From the NCBI RefSeq assembly GCF_001904725.1, contig NZ_MRCE01000053.1, forward strand, positions 1 through 41,773: 41,773 bases of DNA, read 5' to 3'. Below the pieces are notes generated by a model that saw nothing but the letters and a program-made list of their open reading frames with translations, had not been told where the DNA came from and did not search any database. Positions 11,499 through 29,502 of this stretch are shown here, one piece after another; positions within the stretch are counted from its first letter, which is position 1, and every line of letters begins with the position of its first letter. A program made the position numbers and the translations under genes. The DNA is from Phormidium ambiguum IAM M-71 (lineage in GTDB: Bacteria > Cyanobacteriota > Cyanobacteriia > Cyanobacteriales > Aerosakkonemataceae).

Positions 11499-11849
11499 TT
11501 GGTTATAGTCTCCCGATGGTAACTATCAAATATATTCTATTGTCTAAATTACATATACTTATGTGATTGGTAAGGGAAAAAAGACGTGATCCCCTAAAAA
11601 AGTTAACGTAATTCATATCACATAAGAACTGTGATTTACACCTAGAGCTAGCTAAAAGTTAGCTTTTACTAAATAAAGCTATAAATAAAACTGATTAATC
11701 AACCTCCCAATCCAACCTGACGACCTCCAGAGATGCCAAACTTTTAAGATAACATCACTGCTGGCAAAAAATTTGAAAAATGTTAACTTATGTCCTACAA
11801 GAAGAGTTAAAGTGGTGATACTCCGGCTTAGTTAAGAAAAACTGTTTTC
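11499..11849. promoter_or_regulatory. Intergenic region upstream of accD with two palindromes
   Basis: 351 bp without a convincing gene, between the divergent 41-codon gene and accD, so it should hold promoters for both. It contains ATCACATAAGAACTGTGAT (11617-11635), a perfect 6-bp inverted repeat with a 7-base spacer, and AGCTAAAAGTTAGCT near 11650, another inverted repeat. These could be binding sites for a dimeric regulator. No known consensus (NtcA GTA-N8-TAC, or CRP TGTGA-N6-TCACA in that order) is matched. Confidence 0.35.
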
Positions 11850-12779
11850 ATGTCTTTATTTGATTGGTTTGCGAATCGGAAAAAATCCGCTAGTCCGATT
11901 AGTCGAGAACGACAAGAACGAGAAATTGCTGACGGACTTTGGACAAAGTGTGAATCTTGTGGTGTGGTGGCATATACCAAAGACCTGAGAGCTAATCAGA
12001 TGGTTTGCCGGGAATGCGAGCATCACATCAGGATTTACAGTAATGAGCGCATCCGTCAGTTAATCGATTCTAATACCTGGATGCCGATGGATGAGGCAGT
12101 GCGTCCCACAGATCCGCTGCAATTTCGAGATCGCAAATCCTACCGCGATCGCCTGCGAGACACCCAAGAAAAAACCAAATTAGTCGATGCCGTCAACACT
12201 GGAATCGGACAACTCGAAGGCGAAAGAGTTGCTCTCGGAGTCATGGACTTCCGGTTTATGGGTGGCAGTATGGGTTCAGTAGTAGGCGAAAAACTGACTC
12301 GTTTGATTGAAAGAGCCACGCTGGAACGCTTACCCGTAGTAATAATTTGTGCTTCCGGTGGAGCCAGAATGCAAGAAGGGATGTTGAGCTTAATGCAAAT
12401 GGCGAAAATTTCAGGAGCTTTAGAACGTCACAGAGAAGCTCAACTGCTCTACATTCCCGTGTTAACTCATCCCACAACCGGAGGTGTAACCGCCAGTTTT
12501 GCTATGTTGGGGGATATTATTTTGGCAGAACCAAAAGCTACGATCGGCTTTGCAGGTAAACGAGTGATCGAGCAAACTCTCAGAGAAAAATTGCCCGAAG
12601 GTTTCCAAACCTCCGAATATTTGTTACAGCACGGTTTCGTAGATGCGATCGTCCCCAGAACCCAACTGAAATCTACACTAGCTCAACTCATTCGACTTCA
12701 CCGCCCCCAACCAACCAACCATCACGTTTCCTTATCAGAAGTGATTAACGTCTATACCCCAGTTCCTAGCCCAGAGTAA
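11850..12779 (+). CDS. accD: Acetyl-CoA carboxylase carboxyltransferase subunit beta
   Basis: AccD pairs with AccA to form the carboxyltransferase that moves CO2 from biotinylated AccB to acetyl-CoA, giving malonyl-CoA, the first committed step of fatty-acid synthesis. The 309-residue protein has the N-terminal four-Cys zinc ribbon (CESC...CREC, about residues 35-57) and the crotonase-like carboxyltransferase core, with [35 protein letters not shown] forming an oxyanion hole, [16 protein letters not shown] and the [12 protein letters not shown] segment. Length and zinc ribbon are typical for cyanobacteria and chloroplasts. ATG start; the preceding bases contain no strong Shine-Dalgarno. accA is not adjacent. 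Confidence 0.97.
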
Positions 12780-12902
12780 ATCTGAGACAATAAGGCGACA
12801 GGCGGGGAGGCGGGCAGGGAGAAGTGGGTTTGAAGGTTTTCCCAACTTCCCAGATTTTCAGATTAGATATTTATTAAGTATTGAAAAACATTAAAGGCTA
12901 TT

Positions 12903-13030
12903 AGAAGGCAGAAGGAAAGAAAGGCAGAAGGCAGAAGGCAGAAGGCAGAAGGCAGAAGGCAGAAAAATTCCCCTTTCCCTTTTCCCCTTTTTCCCCTTTC
13001 CCCATCTCCCCCTTTCCCCACTCCCCTACC
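12903..13030. repeat. Composite repeat: GGCAGAA heptamers joined to a pyrimidine tract
   Basis: Tandem AGAAGGC units (12903-12964, interrupted by GGAAAGAAA) lead through AAAAATTCCCC into a tract of CCCTTT/CCCC/ATCT runs (to about 13030). The same joining order occurs at 39.9 kb, and inverted at 41.7 kb. It occupies much of the 341-bp gap between accD and the gene at 13121; apart from it I see only a short sequence upstream of that gene. Confidence 0.85.
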
Positions 13031-13120
13031 CTGACGCTGAACTTTTTAATTCTGCCTTAGAAAAGGTGCCGCTCAGTGGCATCATTATGAGAGAGACTCA
13101 ATCTTTTGTAAAAAACCAGT

Positions 13121-13351
13121 ATGGGTTTTGCTAATCTTTCGATTGCCGAAGTCGCAGCTGACTACGACACTTCTGTTACAGAAGTGTTCCAAATTTGCGA
13201 TCGATTAGGCATTCCTTACAAAAACCCCCAGACTCGTTTGGCGCTGGAGGATGCGAAGGCAATCATTTCCGAAATTATGGCTCATAGACCAGACTCAGGC
13301 ACTAACCACCAGGAAGATTTATTCTCGGAAAACCAGAATTCAGCTTCTTAG
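13121..13351 (+). CDS. Small conserved-looking protein with a helix-turn-helix-like N-terminus
   Basis: A 76-residue soluble protein. Residues 5-55 (LSIAEVAADYDTSVTEVFQICDRL, then GIPYKNPQTRLALEDAKAIISEIM) resemble the small helical domains that bind nucleic acid, such as excisionase/MerR-like winged helices or the N-terminal domain of IF-2: an AEVA helix, a short turn, a second helix, a GIPY hinge and a LALEDAKAI helix. The tail is polar and disordered. I suggest a nucleic-acid-binding role by inference only. It lies 179 bp before psbV on the same strand, after a repeat block. The ATG start has no strong Shine-Dalgarno. Confidence 0.7.
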   Translation: MGFANLSIAEVAADYDTSVTEVFQICDRLGIPYKNPQTRLALEDAKAIISEIMAHRPDSGTNHQEDLFSENQNSAS

Positions 13352-13528
13352 AGCCATTAATGCCGATCCTTAATCCGATCTTCTGAGTCAAAGTCACCCA
13401 GCCAGACCTAATGGTATGCTGAGCTTCTGTGTTCAACTGTTGAGGCAATACAGTTTAGCCAGAATTGACTGAGATTGAGTCCCTAAATCAAACTAGAATC
13501 ACGCTCGCCTTATTGTTTTGGGAGAACA

Positions 13529-14020
13529 ATGCTAAAAAAATACTTTTGGCTTGCTGTGGCTACCTTAATCTTCACCTTTCAAATGGTGGTCGGTAGTGCT
13601 TTCGCCATAGAACTCGATGTAGAAACCCGCACAGTGGCTAAGAATGCACAGGGCGATACGATAGTATTGACCTCGAAACAGGTGCAGACAGGCAAACGTT
13701 TATTTAATGCGGTTTGCTCTCAATGTCACAATGGTGGAATTACCAAAACAGACCCTAACGTAGGTCTAGAACCAGAAGCCCTGGCTTTGGCAACTCCACC
13801 TCGTAACAATATCGAAAGTTTGGTAGATTTCATGAAAAATCCTACCAGCTATGATGGGGAAGTGATGATTTCAGAAATCCACCCCAGCAAGAAGAGTAGT
13901 GACATTTTCTCAGAAATGCGAGACCTGACAGATGAAGATCTCAAGGCGATCGCTGGTCACATTCTGATTCAACCAAAAATTGTCGGTGTTAAATGGGGCG
14001 GCGGCAAAATCTACTACTAA
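13529..14020 (+). CDS. psbV: Cytochrome c-550 of photosystem II
   Basis: PsbV is an extrinsic luminal subunit of photosystem II that stabilises the Mn4CaO5 oxygen-evolving cluster and its chloride and calcium binding. The 163-residue precursor has a signal peptide that ends AFA-IELD after residue 26, giving a 137-residue mature protein. The c-type haem site is CSQCH (Cys63, Cys66, His67), and the second axial ligand is His118, position 92 of the mature protein, as known for the family. The C-terminus (GVKWGGGKIYY) is also typical. ATG start with GGGAG 6 bases upstream. It is first in a plus-strand series with petE and petJ and is followed by its own hairpin terminator. Confidence 0.98.
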   Translation: MLKKYFWLAVATLIFTFQMVVGSAFAIELDVETRTVAKNAQGDTIVLTSKQVQTGKRLFNAVCSQCHNGGITKTDPNVGLEPEALALATPPRNNIESLVDFMKNPTSYDGEVMISEIHPSKKSSDIFSEMRDLTDEDLKAIAGHILIQPKIVGVKWGGGKIYY

Positions 14021-14056
14021 AACCGCTTTCCGTTAAGGTAAAACTCCAAAATTAAA

Positions 14057-14106
14057 AGTCAAAAGAAAGAGAAAATATCATTCAAGAGCTTTTTCTTTTG
14101 ACTTTC
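14057..14106 (+). terminator. psbV terminator hairpin
   Basis: The arms AGTCAAAAGAAAGAG (14057-14071) and CTTTTTCTTTTGACT (14089-14103) pair with one mismatch, and TTTCCCC follows. The hairpin starts 37 bases after the psbV stop, which suggests that psbV is transcribed separately from petE. Confidence 0.65.
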
Positions 14107-14304
14107 CCCTTGACGGAAAATTACCAGGTTAAATCACCTCATTAATCGGCATTTGGTAAAGATTTTTTCGGTCTGGATCGCTAGATTCCAGGCTCATCTG
14201 TTTAAGTCGCTGGCAAAATTTACGATTATTCCAGCAGAATTGTCCACTTGCTTGGTATTTTAATTTAAGGTAACCAAGTTCAATGGTAATCTCAGGAGAA
14301 GATT

Positions 14305-14721
14305 ATGAAATTTATGACTGCAATTGGGCGGCGCTTGAGTTTAGCATTCTTGACTATGGTATTAGTCGCCAGTAGCTTCTTTTTGATGGCTTCCCCCGCA
14401 GCTGCGGAAACCTACACAATCAAAATGGGTGCTGATAACGGAATGCTAGCCTTTGACCCGGCTAAAGTAACAATCAAACCCGGAGACACTGTAGAGTGGG
14501 TAAACAACAAAGTTCCTCCCCACAACGTAGTTTTTGATGCAGCTGCTAACCCTGCTAAGAGCGCAGATTTAGCAAAATCCCTTTCTCATAAGCAATTGGT
14601 AATGAAACCAGGTGAGAAGGTTTCGGCAACATTTCCTGCTGATGCTGCGCCTGGTGAGTACACCTACTACTGTGAACCCCATCGCGGTGCGGGTATGATG
14701 GGCAAAATTATTGTCCAATAA
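14305..14721 (+). CDS. petE: Plastocyanin
   Basis: Plastocyanin is the soluble blue-copper protein that carries electrons from cytochrome f to photosystem I, or to terminal oxidases, in the thylakoid lumen. The 138-residue precursor has a signal peptide that ends AAA-ETYT, leaving 104 residues. The four copper ligands are His73, Cys123, His126 and Met131, which are mature positions 39, 89, 92 and 97, exactly as in the family. GGAG lies 8 bases upstream of the ATG. It sits next to petJ, which encodes its functional substitute. In other cyanobacteria the two are regulated oppositely by copper; no operator can be identified here with confidence. Confidence 0.98.
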   Translation: MKFMTAIGRRLSLAFLTMVLVASSFFLMASPAAAETYTIKMGADNGMLAFDPAKVTIKPGDTVEWVNNKVPPHNVVFDAAANPAKSADLAKSLSHKQLVMKPGEKVSATFPADAAPGEYTYYCEPHRGAGMMGKIIVQ

Positions 14722-14841
14722 TACCAACTTCAATCTTTAAGTTCCTTGGTTCATCACAGTAAAGCATTTGCCAGGATCATAAAATATTCTTGGTCAATAA
14801 TTTTATAGCTTGCTGAATAGATTGAGCCAAGGAGAAGTACT

Positions 14842-15174
14842 TTGAAAAAATTAGTTCCAGTCCTATTGCTATCTATAGCAATATTGACTTTTGCCTTAAG
14901 TTCTCCTGCATTAGCAGGAGATATAACTAAAGGTTCAAAAATCTTTAGTGCTAATTGTTCTGCCTGTCATCTGGGTGGAAACAATGTAATTATGGCTAGT
15001 AAAACCTTGAAGAAAGAAGCTTTAGAGAAATATGGTATGAATTCTCTATCAGCTATTATTAATCAGGTGAAAAAAGGCAAAAATGCTATGCCAGCTTTTG
15101 GTGGTCGTCTTTCTGATGACCAAATTGAAGACGTAGCTACATATATCCTAAAGCAAGCCCAAAAGGGTTGGTAG
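14842..15174 (+). CDS. petJ: Cytochrome c6 (cytochrome c-553)
   Basis: Cytochrome c6 replaces plastocyanin as luminal electron carrier between cytochrome b6f and photosystem I, or oxidase, under copper limitation. The 110-residue precursor has a signal peptide cleaved after residue 25 (PALA-GDIT). The haem site is CSACH (Cys39, Cys42, His43), and the axial Met83 in KNAMPAFGG is mature position 58, as expected. The start codon is TTG at 14842, with AAGGAGAAG upstream; the lysine-rich hydrophobic leader begins immediately after it. It is 120 bp downstream of petE on the same strand and ends at a strong terminator. An own promoter in the 120-bp gap is likely if the two genes respond oppositely to copper. 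Confidence 0.97.
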
Positions 15175-15242
15175 TGTCCTGGTTGATTCCCTTAATTTGA
15201 GTAGCAAATTTAAATAGATTTTACTTGAGGCAAAAAGTTTTA

Positions 15243-15280
15243 CCCTTAGTTTGGTTTTTCCTACTAAGGGCTATTTTTTT
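15243..15280 (+). terminator. Rho-independent terminator after petJ
   Basis: The stem CCCTTAGT / ACTAAGGG (15243-15250 and 15263-15270) is followed by CTA and seven T residues, the classical form of an intrinsic terminator. It lies 69 bases after the petJ stop. Confidence 0.85.
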
Positions 15281-15321
15281 GTTTCCAAGTTTATGCTAAA
15301 TCAGGGTTAAAAACTTCTGAT

Positions 15322-15440
15322 AAGACTCGGCGGTTGAAACCGCATCTACACAAACTAAGTCCGCCTTCGCGGACTAAAAAATAACGGGGGTATTAAAGCC
15401 GGATTTTGTACGAGCACTAACCTGAAGTTAGAAGACAGGA
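15322..15440. repeat. Dispersed repeat made of successive small hairpins
   Basis: Three palindromes in a row: GCGGTTGAAACCGC (15330-15343), AGTCCGC-CTTC-GCGGACT (15358-15375) and CTAAC-CTGAA-GTTAG (about 15417-15431). The GAAACCGC...ACTAAGTCCGC...GCGGACT combination is a kind of repeat I know from many filamentous cyanobacteria, probably a MITE or REP-like element. It fills most of the 313-bp gap between petJ and the rhomboid gene; the remainder holds the petJ terminator. Confidence 0.6.
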
Positions 15441-15487
15441 CATTAATAGGTGAGATATCCTGCTAATTGTTTGTTAAGGAAAGTTAA

Positions 15488-16201
15488 ATGGTACCTCTTC
15501 GTGATGAAAATCCAACCATAATCACACCTTATGTGACTTATGGATTGATTATTGCTAATATTTTGGCTTTTGTATACGAATTAACTTTGCCACCGCAACA
15601 ATTGCTCAGCTTTTTTCATTTAGCTGCGATCGTACCAAGGGAATTGAGTGCTAGTTTTGCGGGTGTGGCGATCGATCAACCTGTACCAGAATGGACAACA
15701 TTAATTACTTCTCAATTTCTTCATGCTGGTTTTGCTCATTTAATTGGTAATATGTTGTTTCTCTGGATTTTTGGCAACAATGTTGAAGAAGCTTTAGGTC
15801 ATGTCAAATTTTTGATTTTCTATTTATCTTGTGGAGTATTAGCTGGGCTAGCACAATGGTATTTTTCGATGCAATCTGGGATTCCTTCTTTGGGTGCATC
15901 AGGTGCGATCGCCGGAGTATTAGGAGCTTACATTATTAAATATCCAAATGCTAAAATTCTGACCTTTTTTGGATATTTCTTATTTTATGTTCCGGCGTTC
16001 TTTTTCCTCGGTCTTTGGTTTGTTCAACAAGCATTTTATGGATTTGCTAGTTTACAAGCCCCCACTAATGTAGGTATGGAAAGTGGAGGAATTGCTTATT
16101 GGGCGCACGCTGGCGGCTTTATTTTTGGTGCAATTTTAGGCCCGATTTTGGGGTTATTTGCGAATCAATCTGGCAATCAATCACAAATTGAACAATTTTA
16201 A
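15488..16201 (+). CDS. Rhomboid-family intramembrane serine protease
   Basis: A 237-residue polytopic membrane protein of the rhomboid family, which cuts transmembrane segments of substrate proteins inside the lipid bilayer. The catalytic dyad is present: Ser138 in GASGAIAGVLGAY and His207 in YWAHAGGFIFG. The family's HAGFAHLIGNMLFLWIFG (His79, His84 and Asn88 around the oxyanion pocket) and the GNNVEEALGHVKF loop are also seen. Six or seven membrane helices are likely. ATG start with AAGGAAAG upstream. The substrate is unknown. It converges on the polysaccharide operon and shares a hairpin terminator with it. Confidence 0.94.
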   Translation: MVPLRDENPTIITPYVTYGLIIANILAFVYELTLPPQQLLSFFHLAAIVPRELSASFAGVAIDQPVPEWTTLITSQFLHAGFAHLIGNMLFLWIFGNNVEEALGHVKFLIFYLSCGVLAGLAQWYFSMQSGIPSLGASGAIAGVLGAYIIKYPNAKILTFFGYFLFYVPAFFFLGLWFVQQAFYGFASLQAPTNVGMESGGIAYWAHAGGFIFGAILGPILGLFANQSGNQSQIEQF

Positions 16202-16214
16202 AGCTCGTAAAAAA

Positions 16215-16243
16215 GAGAAAGAAAAGAGATCGTTTTCTTTCTC
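16215..16243. terminator. Bidirectional hairpin terminator
   Basis: An 11-bp perfect stem GAGAAAGAAAA / TTTTCTTTCTC (16215-16225 and 16233-16243) with a 7-base loop lies between the convergent rhomboid and Wzc-like genes. CTTTCTTCTC follows on the plus strand, and an AAAAAAG tract (TTTTTT on the minus strand) precedes it, so it can stop transcription from both sides. Confidence 0.7.
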
Positions 16244-16255
16244 CTTTCTTCTCAA

Positions 16256-18466
16256 TTAAGGTGTAGTAACTTTGATTTCTTCGGGTTCTGGTTCTGATTC
16301 TTGTTTTTCTTGCTGAGTTAAAGTTTCATTTTCTGGTAGTTCAGTTGCGATCGCTTTTTGCTCTGTGAACATTTGTGTTTTTGCGATCGGAATATCCGTA
16401 CCATTAATAATGCCACCCAAGAAAGTAATATCTTCCGATTCTGTCAATTGTTCGGCGGCTTCTGAGAACATACTTTCCACAGTGTAGCCCGGTCGAGCCA
16501 CTAAAATAATGCCATCGGTCATCGGTTCCAAGACAAAGGTATCATTGCAAAGACTCAAAGCTGGAGCATCAATAAATACCATATCGAAGCGACCGCGCAC
16601 ATCTTCTAACAAGCGGCGAAACTCGCTGGATTCTAAGATTGCGGCTGTTTGTGGTACGGGACCCGGACTAGGGACTAAGTATAAATTTTCTACTTCTGGT
16701 ACTAAGCGGACACAATCGCTCCAATTTCCGTAATAACGTAAAGGTTCGATCGCAGCATCTGGATCGGGTGCAACTTTCACGCTTCTAGCGAGGGATGGCG
16801 ATCGCATATCCGCCTCCACAATCAAAGTCCGCTTACCCGCACGGGCAGAAGTAATGGCCATATTATAAGCACTGACACTCTTCCCTTCCTCATTAGTCAC
16901 ACTAGTCAACAAAATGACCTTTACCGGATCTTCACTAGCAGCACGGCGTAAATTAGTCCTTAGCCGTTCATAAGGCTCCAAATAAGGCGAATGAGCATCT
17001 AAAATAATCGGCGTTTCTCCTAATTCTGGGTCGGGAATCGCCACATAAGGCAAAATTCCCAACACAGCCATATCCCGTTGTACCATTGCAGCGCGGATAT
17101 CTTCCATTGTTTGGAACACTCCACCCAGAGAACCCAACAGGAAAATAATTCCCCCACCGACAACTATTCCCACCAAACCGCCAGCTAAAAGTATGACGAT
17201 CGGACTCATAGCTTCTTGAGGTATCAAAGAAGTTTTAGCCGCCCCAAGAGGAATCCAGCTAGCGACTGTCTCCGCCTCAGCAGTTTTCGCATCTGCCAAA
17301 CTTGCCTGCATTTGGCTATACAAATTTTGCTTGAGTTGTAACTTTTCCTGCAACCGCGCTTGTTCTAACTGCTTATTGGGAATAGTAGCGTATTCCTTTC
17401 TCAACCTTTGCTCTTGCTGTATTACACTCTTTAACTGTTGTTGCAGAGTTTCTTTTTGGGTTTGCATAGCTACTAGCTGATTTGCCAAAGCTTGTCTAGC
17501 TGGGTCAAGATTACTATCTTGGCGAACTTGATTAGCACTTTTGAGTGGTGCAGCAATACCACCGCCACCAATAACTTCTGTAGCACGTTGTCTGAGCAAT
17601 TCTTCATAAGAAGCAATTTGCTTACGAAGTTGCACAATATTGGGATGTTTTGGGCGCAAATCTTTTTTGAGAACTTCTAATTGAGATTCGGCTTGGTAGA
17701 TTTGCACTCGCAGATTAGCAATAATTGGATCGGCGCTGAGAGCAGAAGAAGCGTAAGCTTGGTCTGGGTTTAATCCTAATCTTTGTTGCAAACTAGCTAT
17801 TTGAGTTTCAATTCCTTGAGATTGTAATTGTAATGATAATTGTTGGGCTTGATTTTCCAAAATAGACTTGACTAAACTACCATTTTTAGCAGCTAGTAAA
17901 ACTGAGCCTTCGCGTTTAGTATATTGTTCTAAATTTCTTTCCGCTTCTCTTAGTTCTTTTTCTACATTAGGTATGCGTTTTTCAATTTCATTGATAATAG
18001 CCATCAAGCGAGTGGTATTAATTTTGCGACTGAACTTACTCGACTCTTGTAATGCCAAGTTCACTACTTCATTGGCTCGCTTTTGATCCGTATCTTTGTA
18101 AGAAATTGATATTATTGGTGGTGGTGGGGTTTCCCCTTTAGCTGGTGGCTTAGGTAAACCGACATATATGGTTTTACTTAATTGTTTAACATCTACTCTT
18201 GCTTGTTGTGCCACCGCAGAAATCACTTCTTCATTCAAGACTATTTCTTTAGAAGCTACTGGCTGTTGAATGTCGGTGGCGGTTTTGGAAAAGGTTACTC
18301 GTGGTGGATTAGCACCTAGAGAACCTTCGGCGCGGTACTCTTTTGGAGGCGCTGGTTGTTTGGCTACTACCAGAGACACACCCATAACCAGCAGGCAAGC
18401 GGCTAATCCTGTCCATTTATGTTGGTCAAAGGCGATGAAATAGCGTTTAACAATTGGTAAAGTCAT
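16256..18466 (-). CDS. Wzc-like polysaccharide chain-length/P-loop protein (BY-kinase family) lacking a tyrosine tail
   Basis: An inner-membrane co-polymerase of the Wzc/GumC type that controls the length and export of an exopolysaccharide. It has an N-terminal Wzz domain with membrane segment 1 (about 15-33), long periplasmic coiled coils (about 155-400), a second membrane segment (about 420-445) and a cytoplasmic P-loop ATPase. Walker A is TSVTNEEGKS (Lys529), A' is LIVEADMRSP (about 549-557, with Glu where BY-kinases have Asp) and Walker B is MVFIDAP (about 629). The last ~40 residues are acidic and contain no Tyr, so classical C-terminal autophosphorylation is not possible. The ATG at 18466 is preferred over an in-frame TTG four codons upstream. 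It is last in the operon, after the Wza-like gene. Confidence 0.88.
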   Translation of the reverse strand: MTLPIVKRYFIAFDQHKWTGLAACLLVMGVSLVVAKQPAPPKEYRAEGSLGANPPRVTFSKTATDIQQPVASKEIVLNEEVISAVAQQARVDVKQLSKTIYVGLPKPPAKGETPPPPIISISYKDTDQKRANEVVNLALQESSKFSRKINTTRLMAIINEIEKRIPNVEKELREAERNLEQYTKREGSVLLAAKNGSLVKSILENQAQQLSLQLQSQGIETQIASLQQRLGLNPDQAYASSALSADPIIANLRVQIYQAESQLEVLKKDLRPKHPNIVQLRKQIASYEELLRQRATEVIGGGGIAAPLKSANQVRQDSNLDPARQALANQLVAMQTQKETLQQQLKSVIQQEQRLRKEYATIPNKQLEQARLQEKLQLKQNLYSQMQASLADAKTAEAETVASWIPLGAAKTSLIPQEAMSPIVILLAGGLVGIVVGGGIIFLLGSLGGVFQTMEDIRAAMVQRDMAVLGILPYVAIPDPELGETPIILDAHSPYLEPYERLRTNLRRAASEDPVKVILLTSVTNEEGKSVSAYNMAITSARAGKRTLIVEADMRSPSLARSVKVAPDPDAAIEPLRYYGNWSDCVRLVPEVENLYLVPSPGPVPQTAAILESSEFRRLLEDVRGRFDMVFIDAPALSLCNDTFVLEPMTDGIILVARPGYTVESMFSEAAEQLTESEDITFLGGIINGTDIPIAKTQMFTEQKAIATELPENETLTQQEKQESEPEPEEIKVTTP

Positions 18467-18564
18467 AATGAATGGCAACTTTATTTAATGATTTTTCTGG
18501 CGAGATTTTTATTTGTTAATATACTAACTATTATCTCTATATTATCTATAGTATTCCCAATCTT

Positions 18565-19827
18565 TTAATTGCCATTATTTCCTCCGGGACGGAACAGATT
18601 GGTTGCACTATCGGTTAATTCTTGGAAGAAGAGAAGAAATCCTAAAATATCGCGGAAAGGTTGGGTAAAAATGTTGAGGGCATAAGTAATTCGTCCTACT
18701 AGGTTGCGGCCTATAACGATTACATCATTATCTTGCAACAGTATATTTTGGGAAGCGTCGCCAAATAGGGCGCGTCTGGCATTGAGTTCTCGAACGATCG
18801 CTCTACCTCTTTCTCGATCGAATCTAATCACAGCTACACTATCTATGTCAGTACCAACCAAAGATACACCCGCCGCAGTAAAGGCATCTAGGAAACTACT
18901 CCCATTAGCCACAGTCAAATTACCTACAGCTTGGTTGGGGTAACTTAAAATCCGAATATTAATTGTTTGTTGGACTAAGTTGGAACTTGCTACTAATTGA
19001 CGATCGTAATTTTGTTCGGTTCCTACTTGTAATTTTGGCACAATTATCGCATCGCCATCTTCTAAGCGCACTTCGGGAATTGGTTCTCCCGCTGCTAAAG
19101 GAGTGAACAAATCCACTCTTTGTTCAATAAAAGACCCATCCAATAAGAAACGACGAATCACGACTTGTCTTAAATCAGCTTGAGTAGTACTCCCTCCTGC
19201 TGTGAGTAAAGCAGTGGAAAGGCGGGGTAAAGTGGAACCAACAACTAGAGAAAAAGTATAAAGACCTGGACGGGTTACTTCACCAGTAACGGAAACTTGC
19301 AGAGGACGTTGTGCTGCTAATCCGACGGTGACTATGGGGTCGATGACAAATTGATTATAAGCAGCCCGAATTTTTTCTGTAGCTTCTTCAAGAGTCAGAC
19401 CTCTAACTGATACATTTCCAGCCAATGGCAGGATAATATTTCCTTCTGGCCCGACTGCTGCTTGAACGCTAAGTTCGGGAAATCTGGGTACAGAGATGGT
19501 CAACACATCTCCAGGGCCTAAACGATAAGGTCTAAATTGGGGATTAATTGGAAAAGCTTGGGGTGTTTGCTGAAGTTCAAAGGGAACTACTGGGATGGTG
19601 ATTGGCGCTTGGGGAGTAAAGGGAGTGGCAGGTGGTTCTACCCGTTGGGGTGGATTTTGGTTTTCGGTAGGTGGGGTGTTTCCCTGAGAAAGTTTTTGTG
19701 TTTCTTTTCCCCAGCTTTTTTGCCCAAACCACAGTACAGAACTAAAGATTAGCAACAGGGTACTACTGGTGTGTATTCCCAGAATAGTAAGTGCTTTGAA
19801 CTTTTTGCAAAAGAAAACTCCTGTCAT
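18565..19827 (-). CDS. Wza-like polysaccharide export protein with SLBB domains
   Basis: A 420-residue outer-membrane-associated export protein. After an N-terminal hydrophobic segment (about 10-40) and a Pro/Gln-rich linker, the polysaccharide-export domain starts at YRLGPGDVLTISV (about 103-115) and continues through GNIILPLAGNVSVRGLTLEEA. Two soluble-ligand-binding beta-grasp (SLBB) domains follow (LQVSVTGEVTRPG and the later segment around ILSYPNQAVGNLTV...FLDAFTAAGV). The C-terminus FTQPFRDILGFLLFFQEL could form the amphipathic helix barrel known in Wza. It works with the Wzc-like partner encoded 98 bp downstream. The N-terminal segment has no lipobox Cys in the expected place (the only Cys is at residue 7), so it may not be a lipoprotein. 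Confidence 0.9.
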   Translation of the reverse strand: MTGVFFCKKFKALTILGIHTSSTLLLIFSSVLWFGQKSWGKETQKLSQGNTPPTENQNPPQRVEPPATPFTPQAPITIPVVPFELQQTPQAFPINPQFRPYRLGPGDVLTISVPRFPELSVQAAVGPEGNIILPLAGNVSVRGLTLEEATEKIRAAYNQFVIDPIVTVGLAAQRPLQVSVTGEVTRPGLYTFSLVVGSTLPRLSTALLTAGGSTTQADLRQVVIRRFLLDGSFIEQRVDLFTPLAAGEPIPEVRLEDGDAIIVPKLQVGTEQNYDRQLVASSNLVQQTINIRILSYPNQAVGNLTVANGSSFLDAFTAAGVSLVGTDIDSVAVIRFDRERGRAIVRELNARRALFGDASQNILLQDNDVIVIGRNLVGRITYALNIFTQPFRDILGFLLFFQELTDSATNLFRPGGNNGN

Positions 19828-23258: not shown

Positions 23259-23513
23259 TCAGACATCAATTTCATCCCATAATTCAGATATAGGGAAAGT
23301 TTGTCCTGCTTTTGTTTGACGAAGTGAATCTTTTAAGTCTTGGAGTATTTTTTCCTTGGGTTCTGCTTCATCAATTTGCTCAAGTTGATCTGCTAGGTTT
23401 TGCCAAGATTGGAGGAGATTTTCCCAAACTTCTAGAGGTACTAATACGCCTGTTGTCTCGCCGTTAGTATTAGTGACATATTGCACAAGTTTACTAAAAT
23501 CTGCGATCGTCAT
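23259..23513 (-). CDS. Orphan antitoxin (Phd/YefM-like)
   Basis: A small acidic protein (84 residues from ATG at 23513) with the order expected of an antitoxin: an N-terminal MTIADFSKLVQYVTNTNGETTGVLVPLEVWENLL resembling a DNA-binding Phd/YefM-like domain, and a C-terminal helical, acidic tail (EPKEKILQDLKDSLRQ) that would wrap the toxin. The start at 23513 is supported by AGGGATGACAAA just upstream; an in-frame ATG eight codons earlier (23537) is possible. No intact toxin is adjacent; downstream there is only a short RelE-like remnant. It is divergent from the four-gene HerA/NurA operon, with 154 bp between the two starts. Confidence 0.7.
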   Translation of the reverse strand: MTIADFSKLVQYVTNTNGETTGVLVPLEVWENLLQSWQNLADQLEQIDEAEPKEKILQDLKDSLRQTKAGQTFPISELWDEIDV

Positions 23514-23640
23514 TTTGTCATCCCTACCATTACACACATAATCATAGCAATTTCAGTCATATTACTTTATTTTATAGATAATTTTGTTCTGAGGGGACTT
23601 CTAACCTTGAGGCAAGGAATGATAAACTCAAAATCACATC

Positions 23641-23667: not shown

Positions 23668-24399
23668 GTGAAAGATTTATTAATTCTAAATTGTTCTAAA
23701 TCTAAATGTTCAGATATAGAAACTTTACTAGCACTAGAACGTTATAATGGTGTTGCTTTTCGGGTTGTGCGAAAGTTTTTACAGCAAAGAAAACCGGATT
23801 ATTTAGATATTTTTATCCTTTCTGCTAAGTTTGGACTTATATCCAGTAATGAGTTAATTTCTAATTACGATCAAAAGATGGATAAAAAGCGATCGCAAGA
23901 ATTACAATCTACAGTTAATGCCAAATTTTGCGAACTTTTACAAAGTGGATTTTACAAAAGGTGTTTACTGTGTCTAAGTCAAGATTATTTACAAATTTTT
24001 AATAACTATGAAAAAGTTATACCAGAAAAGCTCACTGTTACTATTGCTACTGGTACAATAGGCAAAAAGCTATCAATATTGCATCATTGGCTTTATGGTA
24101 AACCACCAGAATATTTACATACTGTCAAAGAAAATACTGTCAAAGGAAAAGCGACACTTAAAGGCACTGAAGTCAACTTAAGTAAAGCTGAAATTGTTGC
24201 TATTGCTAGACAAGGATTAATAGAAGGTCAAGGTAAACCTTATAATTACCAAACTTGGTATGTCTTAGTTGATGATAAAAAAGTCTCTCCTAAATGGTTA
24301 GTTAGTCAATTAACTGGATTACCTGTAAGTTCTTTTCATTCTATTAAAGCAAGGCAGATTTTACAACAATTAGGGATAGAGATTTATTCGGAATTATGA
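23668..24399 (+). CDS. DUF6884-like protein with an additional C-terminal domain
   Basis: A 243-residue soluble protein. The N-terminal part (1-145) has the pattern of DUF6884: LLILNCSKSK (Cys9, Lys11, Lys13), FRVVRKFL, FILSAKFGLI (49-58) and NYDQKM (67-71). The layout C-s-K-s-K / LSAKfGLi / YD recalls the DUF5591 domain of archaeal ArcS, an enzyme that modifies 7-deazaguanine in tRNA; this is a comparison by eye. Residues 168-243 form a second domain, with YNYQTWYVLVDDKKVSPKWL followed by SSFHSIKARQILQQLGIEIY, similar to the small head domains found in some McrA-like restriction proteins. GTG start; the stop overlaps the next ATG by 4 bases, so translation is coupled. It lies in a four-gene operon with nurA-, herA- and tgt-like genes. 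Activity unknown. Confidence 0.72.
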   Translation: MKDLLILNCSKSKCSDIETLLALERYNGVAFRVVRKFLQQRKPDYLDIFILSAKFGLISSNELISNYDQKMDKKRSQELQSTVNAKFCELLQSGFYKRCLLCLSQDYLQIFNNYEKVIPEKLTVTIATGTIGKKLSILHHWLYGKPPEYLHTVKENTVKGKATLKGTEVNLSKAEIVAIARQGLIEGQGKPYNYQTWYVLVDDKKVSPKWLVSQLTGLPVSSFHSIKARQILQQLGIEIYSEL

Positions 24400-25907
24400 A
24401 AGATATACCAGAACAATTAAGTTTATTTACCCCAGAACAATTACAAGAAATCACTCAACAGATTATAGTGCAGAGGATTCAACAGCAACCTCATATTTTA
24501 ATAAAGCTACAAGAAAATGCTTTAACTGTTGCTGAAAACTTACAAGGTAATTATTTTGAAAATACAGCTAAACTTGTTAATTTTTTACGGCAAAACAATC
24601 AAAAAAATAATTTGTTTAAAATAGGAAATGTTGGTCAGCCTCAATGGTCTGATGTTCAAGATGAAGTTGTAACCTTTATTGATGGTGGGGTTGGTCAAGT
24701 TGAAATGGCAAGTCCTGTTCCTGTTTTGATCAGGGTGGGTTCTTATAAAGTAAAAACTGGAGAACATGATATTTCTAAAAGAGAAGAGTTTGCTTATTAT
24801 CCTATCATTTTTGGTGATTTAGAAGGAGGAAGCAAAGAGCGCAAAGATTTTGTAGATATTGTTAGGATAACCTCTGAACTTTTAGGTGCAATTGCAGCTT
24901 TAGAAAGAACGCCTGATTTAAAAGTTTTAATGATTCATGGCCCATTAGTTTATATGATGAGTGCTTATGCTGGTCATAGCCCTTTTACAGAAAAAGATAT
25001 TGATTTATTTTTAGAGAATTATCCTGGTTCTGAAAAATTTGCTCAAAAGCTTAAAGAAGATTTCTGGAAAGAAGCTGAATTAATTTATCCTAAAATGACT
25101 TCTCATCATCAACATTTAATTGATAAGAAAGTTTTTGAACCTTTAACATGGATCGCTTTTCTTTATAGGAGATTAATCAAGGAAGCAAAAAGTAGAAAAA
25201 GAAAAATAAAACCTTTAATTATGGGAGTCATTGAACGAAATGAACTTAAAGAATTTAGCTTACGTATGTTTGGTAAAATTTTTGATAATCTACGCAAAAA
25301 TAACCAAAAGAATTACTTTAATGACTTGTATGGAAGAAATGATCTAAATGATCCTAAAGTTTTTTTAGATCGTTTAAATTATAAAGATACTTTATTATTA
25401 TCAATGCTTCTTGAAACCCAAGAATTTTCTCAGCCTTGGGAAATGATTTACAAATACCAAAACTTGCCAGAAGGTGACAAAAGTAACATTATCTTGCCTA
25501 ACGAATCTTATGAAATACCTTTTAAATGGTCTTATTTAAAGCCGGATCAAAGCAAATATTGTTTCCCTAAAGTTACTGGATTTTATTTAAAAGTTTCAGA
25601 TACAACTGAACCAGTAAGGATTGAAGTTTTTAGTGAACTAGGAAAAGAACAAATTACAGAAGCAGCTAAACGAGTTTTTCTCTACAGTCAGCTATTACCC
25701 GGATATGGTTTTCCTATAGGGTTAGATATGGTTGACAAATATGCTAAAGTGCCTAATTGGATGACTGATGCGTATGCAAAACAGATTCAATATCATTTAG
25801 GAGTTAGTTTACAAAGTGGTCAAATAAAAGATAAAGAAATGCGTAAAATGTTAATCCAATCTATTTATATGACTAAAAGAGATTGGTTATTCCGCCCTAA
25901 CGTTTAG
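24396..25907 (+). CDS. nurA: NurA-domain nuclease-like protein with altered metal ligands
   Basis: A 503-residue homologue of NurA, the 5'-3' nuclease that works inside a HerA hexamer. NurA motifs: VTFIDGGVGQVE (Asp96), RITSELLGAI (Glu161), LMIHGPLVY (His181, where canonical NurA has DGSL), a YCFPKVTGFYLKV...PVRIEVF segment, and GFPIGLDMVDKYAKV near the end (Phe439 and Asp447, where NurA has Tyr and His eight residues apart). Metal-site residues therefore read D-E-H-D instead of D-E-D-H, possibly a compensating swap. It is much longer than archaeal NurA (~340 residues), with extra helical segments at 190-360. It overlaps the preceding gene by 4 bases and is followed by herA after 30 bp. Confidence 0.8.
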   Translation: MKDIPEQLSLFTPEQLQEITQQIIVQRIQQQPHILIKLQENALTVAENLQGNYFENTAKLVNFLRQNNQKNNLFKIGNVGQPQWSDVQDEVVTFIDGGVGQVEMASPVPVLIRVGSYKVKTGEHDISKREEFAYYPIIFGDLEGGSKERKDFVDIVRITSELLGAIAALERTPDLKVLMIHGPLVYMMSAYAGHSPFTEKDIDLFLENYPGSEKFAQKLKEDFWKEAELIYPKMTSHHQHLIDKKVFEPLTWIAFLYRRLIKEAKSRKRKIKPLIMGVIERNELKEFSLRMFGKIFDNLRKNNQKNYFNDLYGRNDLNDPKVFLDRLNYKDTLLLSMLLETQEFSQPWEMIYKYQNLPEGDKSNIILPNESYEIPFKWSYLKPDQSKYCFPKVTGFYLKVSDTTEPVRIEVFSELGKEQITEAAKRVFLYSQLLPGYGFPIGLDMVDKYAKVPNWMTDAYAKQIQYHLGVSLQSGQIKDKEMRKMLIQSIYMTKRDWLFRPNV

Positions 25908-25937
25908 ATAAACAAGGAAAGTGTTGAGGTTAAATTA

Positions 25938-27692
25938 ATGGTTAAATCTACACAAAAAAATCAACCCGTTGATAAAGAAAAATATGTTGGTACTTTAGTA
26001 GGAGAAAGTACCAGCAATGAATTTCGTTTAGCAGTAACACCAGAAACCATTAAAGAACAAGATATTATTGCTGTTAATGCTGAATTGAATGCTAACGAAA
26101 AAAATACATCTGAAATAATTCGTATTTGGGCTAAAGTGCAAAAAATTGAAAGATTAAATCCCCTTTTTCCACAAGAATCAGGACATGAATTAGCTTTTAC
26201 TCGTACTAATCCTTTTGATACAGTAATGTCATTAAGTCGAGAAATGGTAACAGCAGTGTGTCAAATTTTGGGTTATGAATCCCAAGACAATCCTACTAGT
26301 GGAAAGTTGAAAAAATTGCGCTATCCCCCTAAACCTGCTTCTAATGCTTATCGTCCCGATAATGAAGATATTGCTCGTATTGTTGTAGGTGAATTAAAAG
26401 AAAATTCCAAGGATGACAAATCAAATCGTAGCTTAGATATTGCTACTCTTTCTAATCGTCGAGACATAAAGGTAGAAGTTGATGGTCATGCCATTGTAAC
26501 TCGCCATTTGGCAATTTTAGCAATGACTGGTGCGGGTAAAAGTTGGGCAGCTAGAAGAATTATTGAACAATTAGCAAATAAACATTATCCTATTATAATT
26601 TTTGACCCTCATGGTGATTATACGGGATTAAGTGATGTGGACGATTTGAAAGATAAGGTTAATCGCTATTATGCTCAGTTTCGTGTTTTTGAACAACCTG
26701 CTGATAAAATTATTGCAATAATTGATTCTTTATCTTCAAAAGAACTTGCACCTACGCAGAGAGACTATTTCCCCAGTCTTTTCGCAGCAGCTAAGTCTTT
26801 GTTAAATAATTCTGACAAAAAAATTGAAGAAAAAATAAGATGGTTAAATGAATATTTATCAAATAATAAAATTGGTATTTATTCAAATTTATTTTTTTTG
26901 GCGGATTTAACTGAAGCAATTGTCAAAGCTGGAAAAAATGATGATACAGATTTCTTTCTTAAGCTTAAAGAATGGACAGAACAGGACTTAACAATTAATA
27001 AGCAAAAAGCAGGGTGGATAGAACCTATAATTGGACGTTTACGGGGAACAGCAGCAGCCTTAAAACGAATGGAAAATATAAGTAAGCAAATATCAAATAA
27101 CGCAGAACCTCTTCCTAATGACTTAGCAACTTTAGTTAATTATAACAAAATAACTGTTGTTTCTTTAGCAGGTTATTCTTCTGATATTCAATCTACAATT
27201 TATAGCTTAGTCGCTGAAGAACTTTTTGAATTGCGTGTAAGGAAAGAGTTACCGTATCAATTTGTAATGGTGTTAGAAGAAGGACACAATTTTGTTCCGG
27301 CCAAAGCTAACTCTTCCGCCGAACAGCGTTCAATAGAAATTACTAAACAAATTGCTCAAGAAGGGCGAAAATTTGGAGTAGGTTTAATTTTAATTAGTCA
27401 ACGTCCATCAAGACTCGATGAAACAACTCTAGCAATGTGTAACTCTTATATTATTATGCGAATGCTTAACCCTGCCGATCAAAGTTTTGTCAGAAAAGTA
27501 ATAGAAAGTTTAGGAGAAGAAGAAACAAAAATGTTATCAGATTTAGAGGTGGGTGAAGCAATTTTATCAGGACAATTTACAAGTTTTCCGATTCTTGTTA
27601 AAATGAAGCAGCCAGAATCTAAAGGCGAACGTGAAGAAAAAAATGCGTTTGATAGTTTAGAAGAAGAATATCAGAAATCAAATAAAAAATAA
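25938..27692 (+). CDS. herA: HerA-type hexameric ATPase/DNA translocase
   Basis: A 584-residue member of the HerA/FtsK superfamily. The N-terminal HAS-barrel (about 14-90, KYVGTLVGESTSNEFRLAV) docks NurA-type partners. The ATPase has Walker A MTGAGKS (196-202, Lys201), the following PIIIFDPHGDY, and Walker B FVMVLEEGHNF (Glu447 and Glu448), then EGRKFGVGLILISQRPSRLD (about 476-495) and MLNPADQSFVRKV with a likely arginine finger. In archaea HerA and NurA resect DNA ends; bacterial HerA proteins with diverse nuclease partners act in phage defence. GAGG lies about 11 bases before the ATG. It is third in the operon, after NurA. Highly AT-rich codons compared with leuB or accD. Confidence 0.92.
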   Translation: MVKSTQKNQPVDKEKYVGTLVGESTSNEFRLAVTPETIKEQDIIAVNAELNANEKNTSEIIRIWAKVQKIERLNPLFPQESGHELAFTRTNPFDTVMSLSREMVTAVCQILGYESQDNPTSGKLKKLRYPPKPASNAYRPDNEDIARIVVGELKENSKDDKSNRSLDIATLSNRRDIKVEVDGHAIVTRHLAILAMTGAGKSWAARRIIEQLANKHYPIIIFDPHGDYTGLSDVDDLKDKVNRYYAQFRVFEQPADKIIAIIDSLSSKELAPTQRDYFPSLFAAAKSLLNNSDKKIEEKIRWLNEYLSNNKIGIYSNLFFLADLTEAIVKAGKNDDTDFFLKLKEWTEQDLTINKQKAGWIEPIIGRLRGTAAALKRMENISKQISNNAEPLPNDLATLVNYNKITVVSLAGYSSDIQSTIYSLVAEELFELRVRKELPYQFVMVLEEGHNFVPAKANSSAEQRSIEITKQIAQEGRKFGVGLILISQRPSRLDETTLAMCNSYIIMRMLNPADQSFVRKVIESLGEEETKMLSDLEVGEAILSGQFTSFPILVKMKQPESKGEREEKNAFDSLEEEYQKSNKK

Positions 27693-27712
27693 TTTTAAAA
27701 GGTAAAAAATAT

Positions 27713-28762
27713 TTGCAAATAGTAGCTGGTTTTGGCTTAAAAGGAATAAAACCCCGTGTTTGGGATTCCACATCGCCTTATCACTTAAAAGATTTACAAG
27801 CGGTGATGATTTCTTATGCTGATTTTCATAAAATGCCTAGTCAAAGAAAAAAAGCGATGGAACAAGGATTACATGAACATTTAGGTGTTCCTAAAAATAT
27901 TAAATTTTATCTTGATAATGGAGCTTTTGCTTTTATTAAAAATAATGAGGAAGTTCCTGTTAAAGAATATGCAGAATTTGTAAGAGAAGCAAAACCAGAC
28001 TGGTTTCCTATTCCTCAAGATTTTATTCCTATTCCTAAAATGACTTTAGAAGAACAGGAAGAATGCTTTAATAAAACTATGAATATGAACTTTCGTTATT
28101 ATCAAGGTGATTATGTGCCTGTAGTTCATATTAGTAATTTTTTAGAACAATATATAAAAAAAATAGTTACCAGTAAAGGTTTATCTAAAAAAACTTCTAT
28201 TGCTCTAGGAGGAATTGTTCCTAACCTATTGCGTGCTTCTAAAGCTATTCCTCATAAACAAATTATAGATAATTTAATTCATTTTCGTCAAAAATTCCCC
28301 GATAAAAAATTACATATTTTTGGAATTGGGGGAACAGCAACTTTACATATTGCGGCACTATTAGGTATTAACTCAGTAGATTCTAGTGGCTGGCGAAATC
28401 GTGCAGCAAGGGGATTAATTCAACTACCAGGAACAGGCGATCGCATTGTTGCAGAATTAGGAAATTGGCGAGGTAGAACCATTAGTAAAGAAGAAGAAAA
28501 AAAACTCAAAGAATGCCAATGTCCTGCTTGCAAACAACATGGTTTAGACGGACTTAAAATGAGTGGAGGAATGGGTTTTTATAATCGAGCAACTCATAAT
28601 TTATGGGTACTACTAAAAGAAGCCAGACAAATTGAAGAACATTTAATAATAGGTGATTATGAAACTTGGTATCAAGAACATTTAGATAATACAATTTACC
28701 GACCTTTAATTAAAGAATTACTTGAAGAATTAAAATTAATCCAATTAGGCAAAATTAGGTAG
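27713..28762 (+). CDS. tRNA-guanine transglycosylase paralogue (DpdA-like candidate)
   Basis: A 349-residue member of the TGT superfamily, which swaps guanine for a 7-deazaguanine base. Visible: FYLDNGAFAF (Asp68, matching the DSGGFQ Asp), PQDFIPIP (Asp103), IALGGIVP, IFGIGG, VDSSGWRNRAARG (Asp223, the nucleophile position) and the zinc site CQCPAC...THNL (Cys268, Cys270, Cys273, His295). Bacterial queuine TGT has the same CxCxxC...H site but different core motifs, so this is a paralogue. DpdA (TgtA5) inserts preQ0 into DNA; whether this one acts on DNA or RNA cannot be decided. The start is TTG with AAAGG upstream. No preQ0-synthesis genes occur in the window. It is the last operon gene, and no clear terminator follows. 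Confidence 0.82.
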   Translation: MQIVAGFGLKGIKPRVWDSTSPYHLKDLQAVMISYADFHKMPSQRKKAMEQGLHEHLGVPKNIKFYLDNGAFAFIKNNEEVPVKEYAEFVREAKPDWFPIPQDFIPIPKMTLEEQEECFNKTMNMNFRYYQGDYVPVVHISNFLEQYIKKIVTSKGLSKKTSIALGGIVPNLLRASKAIPHKQIIDNLIHFRQKFPDKKLHIFGIGGTATLHIAALLGINSVDSSGWRNRAARGLIQLPGTGDRIVAELGNWRGRTISKEEEKKLKECQCPACKQHGLDGLKMSGGMGFYNRATHNLWVLLKEARQIEEHLIIGDYETWYQEHLDNTIYRPLIKELLEELKLIQLGKIR

Positions 28763-28856: not shown

Positions 28857-29258
28857 TTAGCTCCAATCTTCTAATTCTAACCCTTCAATTCTATCAAAAT
28901 GACGCTGGTTATGGGTAACAAGAACCAAATTATTAGCAATAGCAACACCAGCAATTAGCAAATCGATATCATCAACAGGAATACCAGCCCGCCGCAAATT
29001 TGCATATATGGTTGCTGATAGGGTAACAGATTCCTGAGTGAGCGGTAAAATAGTATTTCGTGCAGCAAATTCTAGAAACAAAGAAAGTTTTTTCTGAGCA
29101 TCACGGTGCATTAAGCCGCTCACAATTTCATAATAAGTGACAATGCTAATGTTGATTTTGGGATGCACTGTCAAATAAGCTTGAAACTTGGCTACTACAT
29201 TGGAGTTACCCCGAAAAAACATTGACAGAATATCGGTGTCAATCAAGGCTAATTTCAT
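28857..29258 (-). CDS. vapC: VapC-like PIN-domain ribonuclease toxin
   Basis: A 133-residue PIN-domain protein, the toxin of a type II toxin-antitoxin pair; such toxins cleave RNA (tRNA or rRNA) with Mg2+. The acidic site is complete: Asp7 and Asp9 (LALIDTDIL), Glu44 (TYYEIVSGL), Asp99 (DDIDLLIAGVA), and the closing VTHNQRHF. Length and motif order are normal, so it is probably active. The ATG lies inside the 3' end of the antitoxin gene (20-bp overlap), which couples their translation. It converges on the HerA/NurA/TGT operon, 94 bp from its end. Confidence 0.92.
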   Translation of the reverse strand: MKLALIDTDILSMFFRGNSNVVAKFQAYLTVHPKINISIVTYYEIVSGLMHRDAQKKLSLFLEFAARNTILPLTQESVTLSATIYANLRRAGIPVDDIDLLIAGVAIANNLVLVTHNQRHFDRIEGLELEDWS

Positions 29259-29502
29259 AATCTCGTCTTTGGTTAAAAGCTTGCTGGCGACGAATCGCTA
29301 TTTCATCTACAAATTCGGTGTAAGTTTCATCTAGCATATCACTCCAGCAACCCGCAAATTGTAGAATAGCTTTAGCATCGTTACTAGTATCATCTGCGCT
29401 CGATCGAAAGGAATGGATTAACTCATACAATTCCATCAATTTATCTTCTGGAACTTGCTGAATTTCTTCAAATACTTTGGTTCTAAGTTCAGATATATTC
29501 AT
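29239..29502 (-). CDS. Antitoxin of the VapC-type module
   Basis: An 87-residue acidic protein placed upstream of, and overlapping, the vapC-like gene, the usual order for an antitoxin. The N-terminal MNISELRTKVFEEIQQVPED is followed by a helix ELYELIHSFR; the C-terminal part (MLDETYTEFVDEIAIRRQQA) resembles the toxin-wrapping tails of cyanobacterial VapB-like proteins. No clear AbrB or ribbon-helix-helix motif is visible, so the DNA-binding part remains unclear. AGGAGAG lies 8 bases before the ATG, a strong ribosome-binding site consistent with making excess antitoxin. Confidence 0.8.
   Translation of the reverse strand: MNISELRTKVFEEIQQVPEDKLMELYELIHSFRSSADDTSNDAKAILQFAGCWSDMLDETYTEFVDEIAIRRQQAFNQRRDYEISLD

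Follow-up and report, generated by a model that had tools for sequence, protein, structure and literature searches.

A four-gene operon joining a TGT-family enzyme and a DpdC-type protein to HerA and NurA in Phormidium ambiguum as a candidate Dpd-like restriction-modification system

Dpd systems (DpdA-DpdK) mark DNA by base exchange, and part of the BREX-Related Capture (BRC) loci combine a HerA/FtsK ATPase with a TGT (PMC12839542). Here, an operon that resembles both was analysed. It is located at 23668-28762 in a 41,773-nucleotide stretch of Phormidium ambiguum IAM M-71 DNA (contig NZ_MRCE01000053.1), and the whole stretch is called the window. Four plus-strand open reading frames (ORFs) encode a DUF6884 protein, a NurA-family nuclease, a HerA/FtsK-type ATPase and a TGT-family base-exchange enzyme. 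The operon shares with Dpd a base-exchange TGT, a DpdC-type (DUF6884) partner, DNA-processing effectors and, in relatives, nearby supply genes for preQ0 (7-cyano-7-deazaguanine). However, it has four genes only, its TGT belongs to a separate clade without the DpdA insert, and in its effector HerA would be joined by NurA, by a protein that is probably NurA-like, or by proteins resembling Mre11 and Rad50. BRC has parts of its own, namely PglZ, DUF6079, a STAND NTPase, DUF4007 and GNAT; no DpdB or DpdC is reported for it by the authors, and NurA is not mentioned in the main text (PMC12839542). In contrast, the operon has a DpdC-type protein and a nuclease in its four genes and no BREX parts. Pfam gave no match to PglZ, DUF6079, STAND NTPase or DUF4007 in these genes; four neighbours were scanned and the others were checked by inspection. 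In HerA-effector defence (Sir2-HerA and others), a HerA ATPase is likewise coupled to a neighbouring effector, but the effector of the operon is NurA or others, and to our knowledge HerA-effector systems have no base-modification module. The cassette of Fusobacterium phage phiFN37 carries the same two marking genes with a preQ0-type (queuosine precursor) transporter, whereas HerA and NurA were not annotated in the 8.4 kb of the phage examined. The qatABCD and type IV CBASS operons also place 7-deazaguanine-pathway proteins in defence (PMC13329287), but with QueC-family protein-conjugation chemistry instead of a base-exchange TGT and HerA-NurA. The operon type appears to be unnamed in the searchable literature, in which the closest published composition found was BRC, without DpdC and with BREX parts. 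A literature search, with most subscription papers outside its reach, found no description of HerA, NurA and TGT together. This agreed with the first-pass annotation, made from the DNA letters alone, which knew of no system of exactly this composition.

We propose, with a probability of roughly two in three, that the operon is a compact Dpd-like restriction-modification system that marks its own DNA with preQ0 or its amide and carries a modular DNA-degrading effector. The TGT would swap guanine in the cell's own DNA for preQ0. The base would be made by the host, with QueD and QueC encoded elsewhere in the genome, and in relatives it would be imported or made by genes adjoining the operon. The DUF6884 protein would act on the preQ0 nitrile, probably by hydrolysis to the amide (dADG) and perhaps via a conserved cysteine. 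The HerA motor and the nuclease would form the effector, which would load on unmarked DNA and degrade it, and we infer from this a role in defence. The nuclease partner would be NurA in the window; in relatives, a protein that is probably NurA-like, or a pair resembling Mre11 and Rad50, would take this place. In evolution, the marking pair would stay together while the effector core was exchanged. The DNA-processing families of the core partners count in favour of this proposal.

The gene content of the operon and its conservation were observed directly. The first two genes overlap by 4 bp, followed by gaps of 30 and 20 bp, and all four proteins scored above the curated Pfam cut-offs (DUF6884, NurA, DUF87/HerA and TGT). 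The layout and the family assignments given earlier were thus borne out. The search for the four-gene neighbourhood across genomes, which the first-pass annotation had proposed, showed that the genes co-occur widely. A six-frame search was performed on 386 genomes of the phylum, including the genome of P. ambiguum itself (the own genome). The TGT query matched eight of them: four intact family members (its own and G213, G203 and G085, with 79%, 67% and 64% identity), a fragment where the contig ends (G118), and three distant relatives that scored 21-24 bits. Eleven of the 386 gave a match to the DUF6884 profile, and the four strong ones (358-377 bits) were in the same four genomes with an intact TGT. 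The other seven scored 40 bits or less, and four of these were in frames of 697-737 aa resembling DpdA fusions. A wide scan was then based on patterns from a five-sequence TGT alignment, with one genome for each of 84,980 species, and gave 30 loci from 80 pattern matches as a lower bound. Completeness was judged by six-frame HMM searches and a search of nine of their genomes. Twenty loci held complete operons, five were cut by contig ends (L029, L032, L033, L042 and L049), four were decayed (L031, L052, L053 and L054), and one had no adjacent DUF6884 gene (L050). L027 and L038, both among the 30, coincide with the loci L016 and L017. Among the loci cut by contig ends, L029, L032 and L033 had a strong DUF6884 match (315-335 bits) on another contig of the genome, and L049 had a partial one (133 bits). 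HerA was split in L035. A chance neighbourhood was ruled out by the 20 complete operons among 30 loci. The sequence records carried seven phylum names: Cyanobacteria, Chloroflexi, Acidobacteria, Proteobacteria, Bacteroidota, Poribacteria and Actinobacteria. In Aulosira laxa NIES-50, a form of the operon was found on a 40-kb plasmid typed mobilizable.

Genes for preQ0 supply were located just upstream of the operon in six relatives (L036, L043, L051, L040, L046 and L047). In L036, L043 and L051 a YhhQ-family (Vut_1) gene was directly upstream of DUF6884, and in L040 such a gene was found at a distance of 0.8 kb on the same side (E values 3e-51 to 8e-54 for the four). YhhQ is described as a preQ0 transporter (PMC5372724). 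L046 had a Vut_1 fragment (9e-9), and L047 had QueD and QueC at the operon. BLAST with four supply proteins found no further copies in the loci, but the search overlooked the L046 fragment as well. QueC (264 bits), QueD and a normal Tgt are encoded in the own genome. A DUF366 gene was observed upstream in L045; a literature search found no paper linking DUF366 to queuosine.

The TGT-family enzyme is encoded at 27713-28762 on the plus strand (349 aa, TTG start; Pfam TGT 5e-9). Its key residues were Asp68, Asp103, Gly166-Gly167, His201, Asp223 and the zinc site Cys268/270/273-His295. In the alignment with E. coli Tgt, Asp68 corresponded to Asp89, Asp223 to Asp264, Cys268/270/273 to Cys302/304/307 and His295 to His333, which confirmed the two aspartates and the CxCxxC...H zinc site noted earlier. 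The catalytic and zinc residues were invariant in 32 of 32 TGT homologues (two duplicate pairs included), and Gly167 was kept in 31; alignment A4 holds 22 of the 30 distinct full-length TGTs. The predicted model showed the TGT fold (pLDDT 88), with TM scores of 0.71-0.72 for the top two Foldseek matches. The protein is a member of the TGT superfamily, with the general-base and nucleophile Asp, the substrate Asp, the zinc site and the TGT fold all present. In a joint tree of 50 TGTs, the 30 family rows formed one clade (99/92), seven DpdA rows formed another (95/95), and E. coli Tgt and the own Tgt stood apart (100/100). Because of long branches, which the program flagged, the deeper order was not used, and the archaeosine TGT was left out of the tree. 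The grouping with the queuine tRNA enzyme that the first-pass annotation had considered was not seen. A duplicate of the ordinary queuine Tgt was ruled out by the 100/100 separation, by a GGIVP loop that is not of the GGLAVGE type, and by a profile E value of 0.12 for E. coli Tgt.

The family profile scored DpdA and Dpd-associated TGTs at up to 43 bits, versus 7.8 for the own Tgt and 1.7 for E. coli Tgt. On the window TGT, the NCBIfam DpdA model gave 34.9 bits, below its cut-off of 200, the archaeosine-TGT model TIGR00432 gave 35.1 bits, below its cut-off of 350, and PADLOC DpdA matched with 3e-11. The only PDB sequence matches of the family profile were archaeosine TGT 1IQ8 (2e-10) and DpdA 7UI4 (2e-5). 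The former match covered residues 68-329 of a chain of 582, and the window protein ends at 349 aa. The active-site loop was GGIVP in the family, Gly-Gly-[VM]-Val-Pro in 1IQ8 and 7UI4, and Gly-Gly-Leu-Ala-Val in E. coli Tgt. The position of His201 was His in 1IQ8, in 7UI4 and in 11 of 11 other non-canonical reference TGTs, and Tyr in E. coli Tgt and the own Tgt. Bacterial Tgt uses preQ1. Archaeosine TGT and DpdA are described as using preQ0 (PMC5485725, PMC12839542). Because the active-site signature is common to these two preQ0 users, preQ0 is likely to be the base that the TGT exchanges. The fold leaves DNA versus RNA undecided, because the top match was archaeosine TGT and DpdA was not among the best 50 of the 187 Foldseek matches below 0.001.

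A phage origin of the TGT was rejected, since tblastn gave no match at 1e-5 in 50,697 phage records and the pattern-based scan of the viral set gave one contig. A contig of the viral set (L055, 3387-8665) carries a lone family TGT with 65% identity. It also has genes with similar starts and no Pfam family, which adjoin a PAPS-reductase-domain gene.

The DUF6884/DpdC-type protein is encoded at 23668-24399 on the plus strand (243 aa, GTG start; Pfam DUF6884 5e-11). The DUF6884 domain is N-terminal, at about aa 6-139 (23683-24084), and contains Cys9 and Lys13. The C-terminal domain, at about aa 160-243, gave no convincing Pfam family in five members scanned. C9, K13, R25 and Y26 were present in 18 of 18 aligned proteins (alignment A3, which holds 18 of the 19 proteins of A2), and C9 and K13 were kept in 22 of 23 in a wider set with duplicates and decayed copies. 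PADLOC matched the window protein to PDC-M57A (4e-10) and DpdC (4e-6); for three other family members scanned, the best DpdC E values were 1e-4 to 4e-3. A DUF6884 family profile matched haloarchaeal DUF6884/DpdC proteins (38-41 bits), phage phiFN37 (37), a TGT fusion of the own genome (37) and DpdA fusions (22-28). DUF6884 forms a fusion with DpdA in L020 and with a TGT in the own genome (L003/L024), and in phage phiFN37 the DUF6884 gene adjoins the TGT and the preQ0-type transporter. The protein was identified by its sequence as a homologue of the DpdC-type domain. In its predicted model (pLDDT 87), the best fold matches were E. coli YaaA 5CAJ (DUF328) and AF0587 2Q07, which we take to be related to archaeosine synthase. 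A Cys-x3-Lys motif is presumably common to the DUF6884 protein and archaeosine synthase. DUF6884 is named as the dpdC domain in PMC11888242, and DpdC is assigned to DUF328 in PMC12839542. In QueF and QueF-L, the preQ0 nitrile reacts with a cysteine to give a thioimide (PMC5485725). By analogy with these enzymes, we infer that the DUF6884 protein may attack preQ0 through its cysteine.

The outer genes, DUF6884 and TGT, are constant, while the core between them varies among three kinds. The type A core, NurA then HerA, was found in the window and in 13 of the 20 complete operons as counted. The NurA-family nuclease is encoded at 24396-25907 on the plus strand (503 aa, ATG start; Pfam NurA 9.4e-9, at aa 326-452 only, in the C-terminal half). 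It has an Asp-Gly-Gly motif at Asp96, and Asp96 and Gly97 were conserved in at least 13 of 14 type-A homologues. The HerA/FtsK-type ATPase is encoded at 25938-27692 on the plus strand (584 aa, ATG start; Pfam DUF87 6e-28, HerA_C 8e-9), with Walker A at aa 198-202 and a probable Walker B at Glu447-Glu448; the PADLOC HerA model matched it with 2.8e-59. In the 11 relatives listed, identity was 53-60% for NurA and 56-62% for HerA. Among the 386 genomes of the phylum, the window NurA was present only in the own genome. The two genes are adjacent in the window, and both proteins scored over the Pfam cut-off. The gene pairing read from the window earlier was borne out, but it proved to be one of three cores across relatives. 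The type B core, in six of the 20 complete operons, had a different HerA followed by a 530-554-aa protein. This HerA matched type A with an hhalign probability of 99 and was 22-29% identical to the window HerA in the main BLAST alignments. The 530-554-aa protein had an invariant Arg-Asp-Gly-Ser (RDGS) motif. Its Pfam NurA match was marginal (E 0.041, one member scanned), and profile-profile comparison with the window NurA gave no match (probability 0.4), so that this nuclease is only likely to be NurA-like. The type C core was complete in one of the 20 operons (L030) and was also found on plasmid L014 and as pieces in L029 and L032. Its 352-aa protein matched no family when two members were scanned. 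The other parts were an ATPase with a weak likeness to HerA, a phosphoesterase of the Mre11/SbcD type and an ATPase of the Rad50/SbcC type. The first ATPase was below the Pfam DUF87 cut-off (21.0 versus 23.2 bits), with an hhalign-type probability of 34 to the window HerA, and its HerA-like label is weak.

The two marking genes were also followed in trees. Five changes of core type were needed on the TGT tree (30 rows, 28 typed), at least four of them forced by starred (well-supported) branches. On the DUF6884 tree (19 rows), five were needed and at least three were forced. The trees and profile sets were made without the duplicates L027 and L038, and no core type was assigned to L042 and L055. 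The TGT set (>450 bits) was without L019, L031, L052, L053 and L054; the DUF6884 tree likewise omitted L031 and L054, and it lacked rows for L030, L040, L041, L044 and L050, where the gene was partial, short or not called as an ORF. The window, of type A, grouped with the type-B loci L025, L016 and L026 in the TGT tree (100/100) and in the DUF6884 tree (98/97). Because both trees placed the window in the same type-B group, the two outer genes seem to move as a pair when the core is replaced. The window TGT was 87-89% identical to that of L025. At the DNA level, the window and L025 showed 86% similarity over 27703-28729, a stretch that begins ten bases upstream of the TGT start. The latter half of the DUF6884 gene gave 68%, and blastn found no similarity in between. 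As supported by the trees, related bacteria appear to have exchanged the core repeatedly and kept the marking pair. In L044, a complete type-C core (11108-18587, minus strand) directly adjoins a type-A operon; it may represent a stage in core exchange or a system that works on its own. In L014 (2575-4690) and L030 (428-2558), DUF6884 and the type-C core are separated by a gene that starts alike in both loci, an unknown gene and a gene for an M78 peptidase; the similar-start gene of L014 was sigma-70-like, below the cut-off.

Several observations weigh against the proposed marking of self DNA by a Dpd-like system. L050 has the core and the TGT and lacks an adjacent DUF6884 gene, the search of the L042 genome found no DUF6884, and the DUF6884 of L041 was barely recognisable (26 bits). 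No supply genes were found beside the cyanobacterial operons. The TGT has no long DpdA insert, with 45 residues from Asp223 to Cys268 versus 111-216 in five DpdA rows. The DpdA of L020 and L064 has GGLAR, so not every DpdA carries GGxVP. Among solved TGTs, the one nearest in both sequence and fold is the archaeosine TGT, which acts on tRNA and is not a row of the tree. Two proteins taken for DpdC by their position in proteobacterial dpd clusters scored only 6-7 bits with the DUF6884 profile, and the aligned part in these candidates and in haloarchaeal DpdC excludes Cys9. The fold matches of the DUF6884 protein were weak over the whole length (TM 0.33-0.37; YaaA 0.35). DpdB is the ATPase of the Salmonella-type Dpd system (PMC12839542). 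It is of the DGQHR/DndB-like kind, and Pfam gave no DndB match among the four operon proteins. For DpdD-K, PADLOC gave no match in the four genes at E values up to 1.

The alternatives are all unlikely in our view. The least improbable is that the TGT puts the mark on incoming DNA, or on DNA of a certain state, and that HerA and the nuclease attack the marked DNA while the genome stays unmarked. The sequence does not fix the direction of discrimination, and with marking and degrading genes in one operon the effector could read the mark positively; however, known Dpd systems are described as marking host DNA (PMC12839542). The decayed loci L031, L052 and L054, with remnants of both marking genes and little or no core, fit this explanation and self-marking alike. 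A slightly lower chance is given to modification of tRNA or other RNA by the TGT, with the HerA-nuclease genes serving repair or defence independently. The best PDB match by sequence and fold was the archaeosine tRNA-TGT, itself outside the tree. Archaeosine TGT, however, has extra C-terminal tRNA-binding domains. The window protein ends at 349 aa, versus 582 for archaeosine TGT, the marking pair is tied to three kinds of DNA-processing core, and the family profile ranked DpdA and Dpd-associated TGTs above the own and E. coli Tgt. It is somewhat less probable again that the operon attacks phage DNA carrying 7-deazaguanines, and that its TGT and DUF6884 protein process the foreign base or take it out. 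TGT-DUF6884 cassettes do occur in phages (phiFN37), and the own genome has two further genes of the TGT family (L023 and L024, one DUF6884-fused) on other contigs, in surroundings that are phage- or plasmid-like by eye only. However, six relatives have genes for importing or synthesising preQ0 at the operon, which points to production of the base and not to its removal. Doubted a little more is genome maintenance, in which marking and resection would serve DNA repair or mobile-element replication. HerA, NurA, Mre11 and Rad50 are repair proteins in archaea, and one copy of the operon is on a plasmid typed mobilizable, but the patchy distribution (four intact in 386 genomes), the core exchange and the decay are typical of conflict systems. 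Deazaguanylation of protein, as by the TGT-family Cap10 that was repurposed for protein in type IV CBASS (PMC11996544), is very improbable even with QueC adjoining the operon in L047, because Pfam found no CD-NTase among the four genes, the base-exchange catalytic and zinc residues are all kept, and the L047 QueC is accompanied by QueD as a biosynthetic pair.

The surroundings of the operon and further TGT or DUF6884 genes were also recorded. The operon region is AT-rich, with a GC content of 0.29-0.34 per 1-kb bin at 23-29 kb, below most but not all bins of the window. On one side, a PIN-domain gene (28857-29258) and a small partner occupy 28857-29502 on the minus strand; on the other, a RelB-like match below the Pfam cut-off was found at 23259-23537 on the minus strand. 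An upstream preQ1 riboswitch was rejected, as Rfam at the gathering threshold gave nothing on the window or on L036, L045 and L051, and one tRNA on L043. In the own genome, contig C67 has a TGT with a C-terminal DUF6884 domain (L024, 10235-11581; PADLOC PDC-M57A 121 bits, DpdA 70 bits), and contig C57 has a further TGT-family gene (L023, 9775-10695). DndB-family matches in this genome were found only on contig C14, at 51782-54399 (L079 and L080; 397 and 56 bits), which suggests a separate DNA-modification locus. The haloarchaeal plasmids L015 (4970-11761) and L065 (4004-10642) combine DpdA and a second small TGT with a DUF6884 protein, a BREX-type ATPase and a queuosine precursor transporter, and this set is another composite marking system. 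In bacterial plasmid Dpd clusters, a second small TGT was observed besides DpdA (L061, 15167-16114; L064, 13043-13966), and in the alignment the Nostoc small TGT of such clusters kept only one of four zinc ligands.

The first-pass annotation had proposed a modification-plus-nuclease system. This idea stood in outline, by the co-occurrence of the genes and the TGT clade, but it missed the DpdC link of DUF6884, the preQ0 supply genes and the modular core. A more far-reaching version, which we put forward tentatively and consider doubtful, is that the operons make up a class of their own within 7-deazaguanine restriction-modification, built from a common marking module of two genes that recombination pairs with interchangeable DNA-end resection engines. 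Such a class would work without a sequence-specific endonuclease. The engine would enter at DNA ends, and the mark, or DUF6884 reading the mark, would stop resection on self DNA. If the proposal is true, the Dpd principle of marking DNA by base exchange would be reduced to four genes, tractable for reconstitution, and repair-type end-resection machines could act as the effector of a base-mark defence. The exchange of the core would be a natural experiment, in which the feature common to the three engines should be the reader of the mark. DUF6884, found here in a small protein whose cysteine is conserved, would gain an enzymatic role that can be tested.

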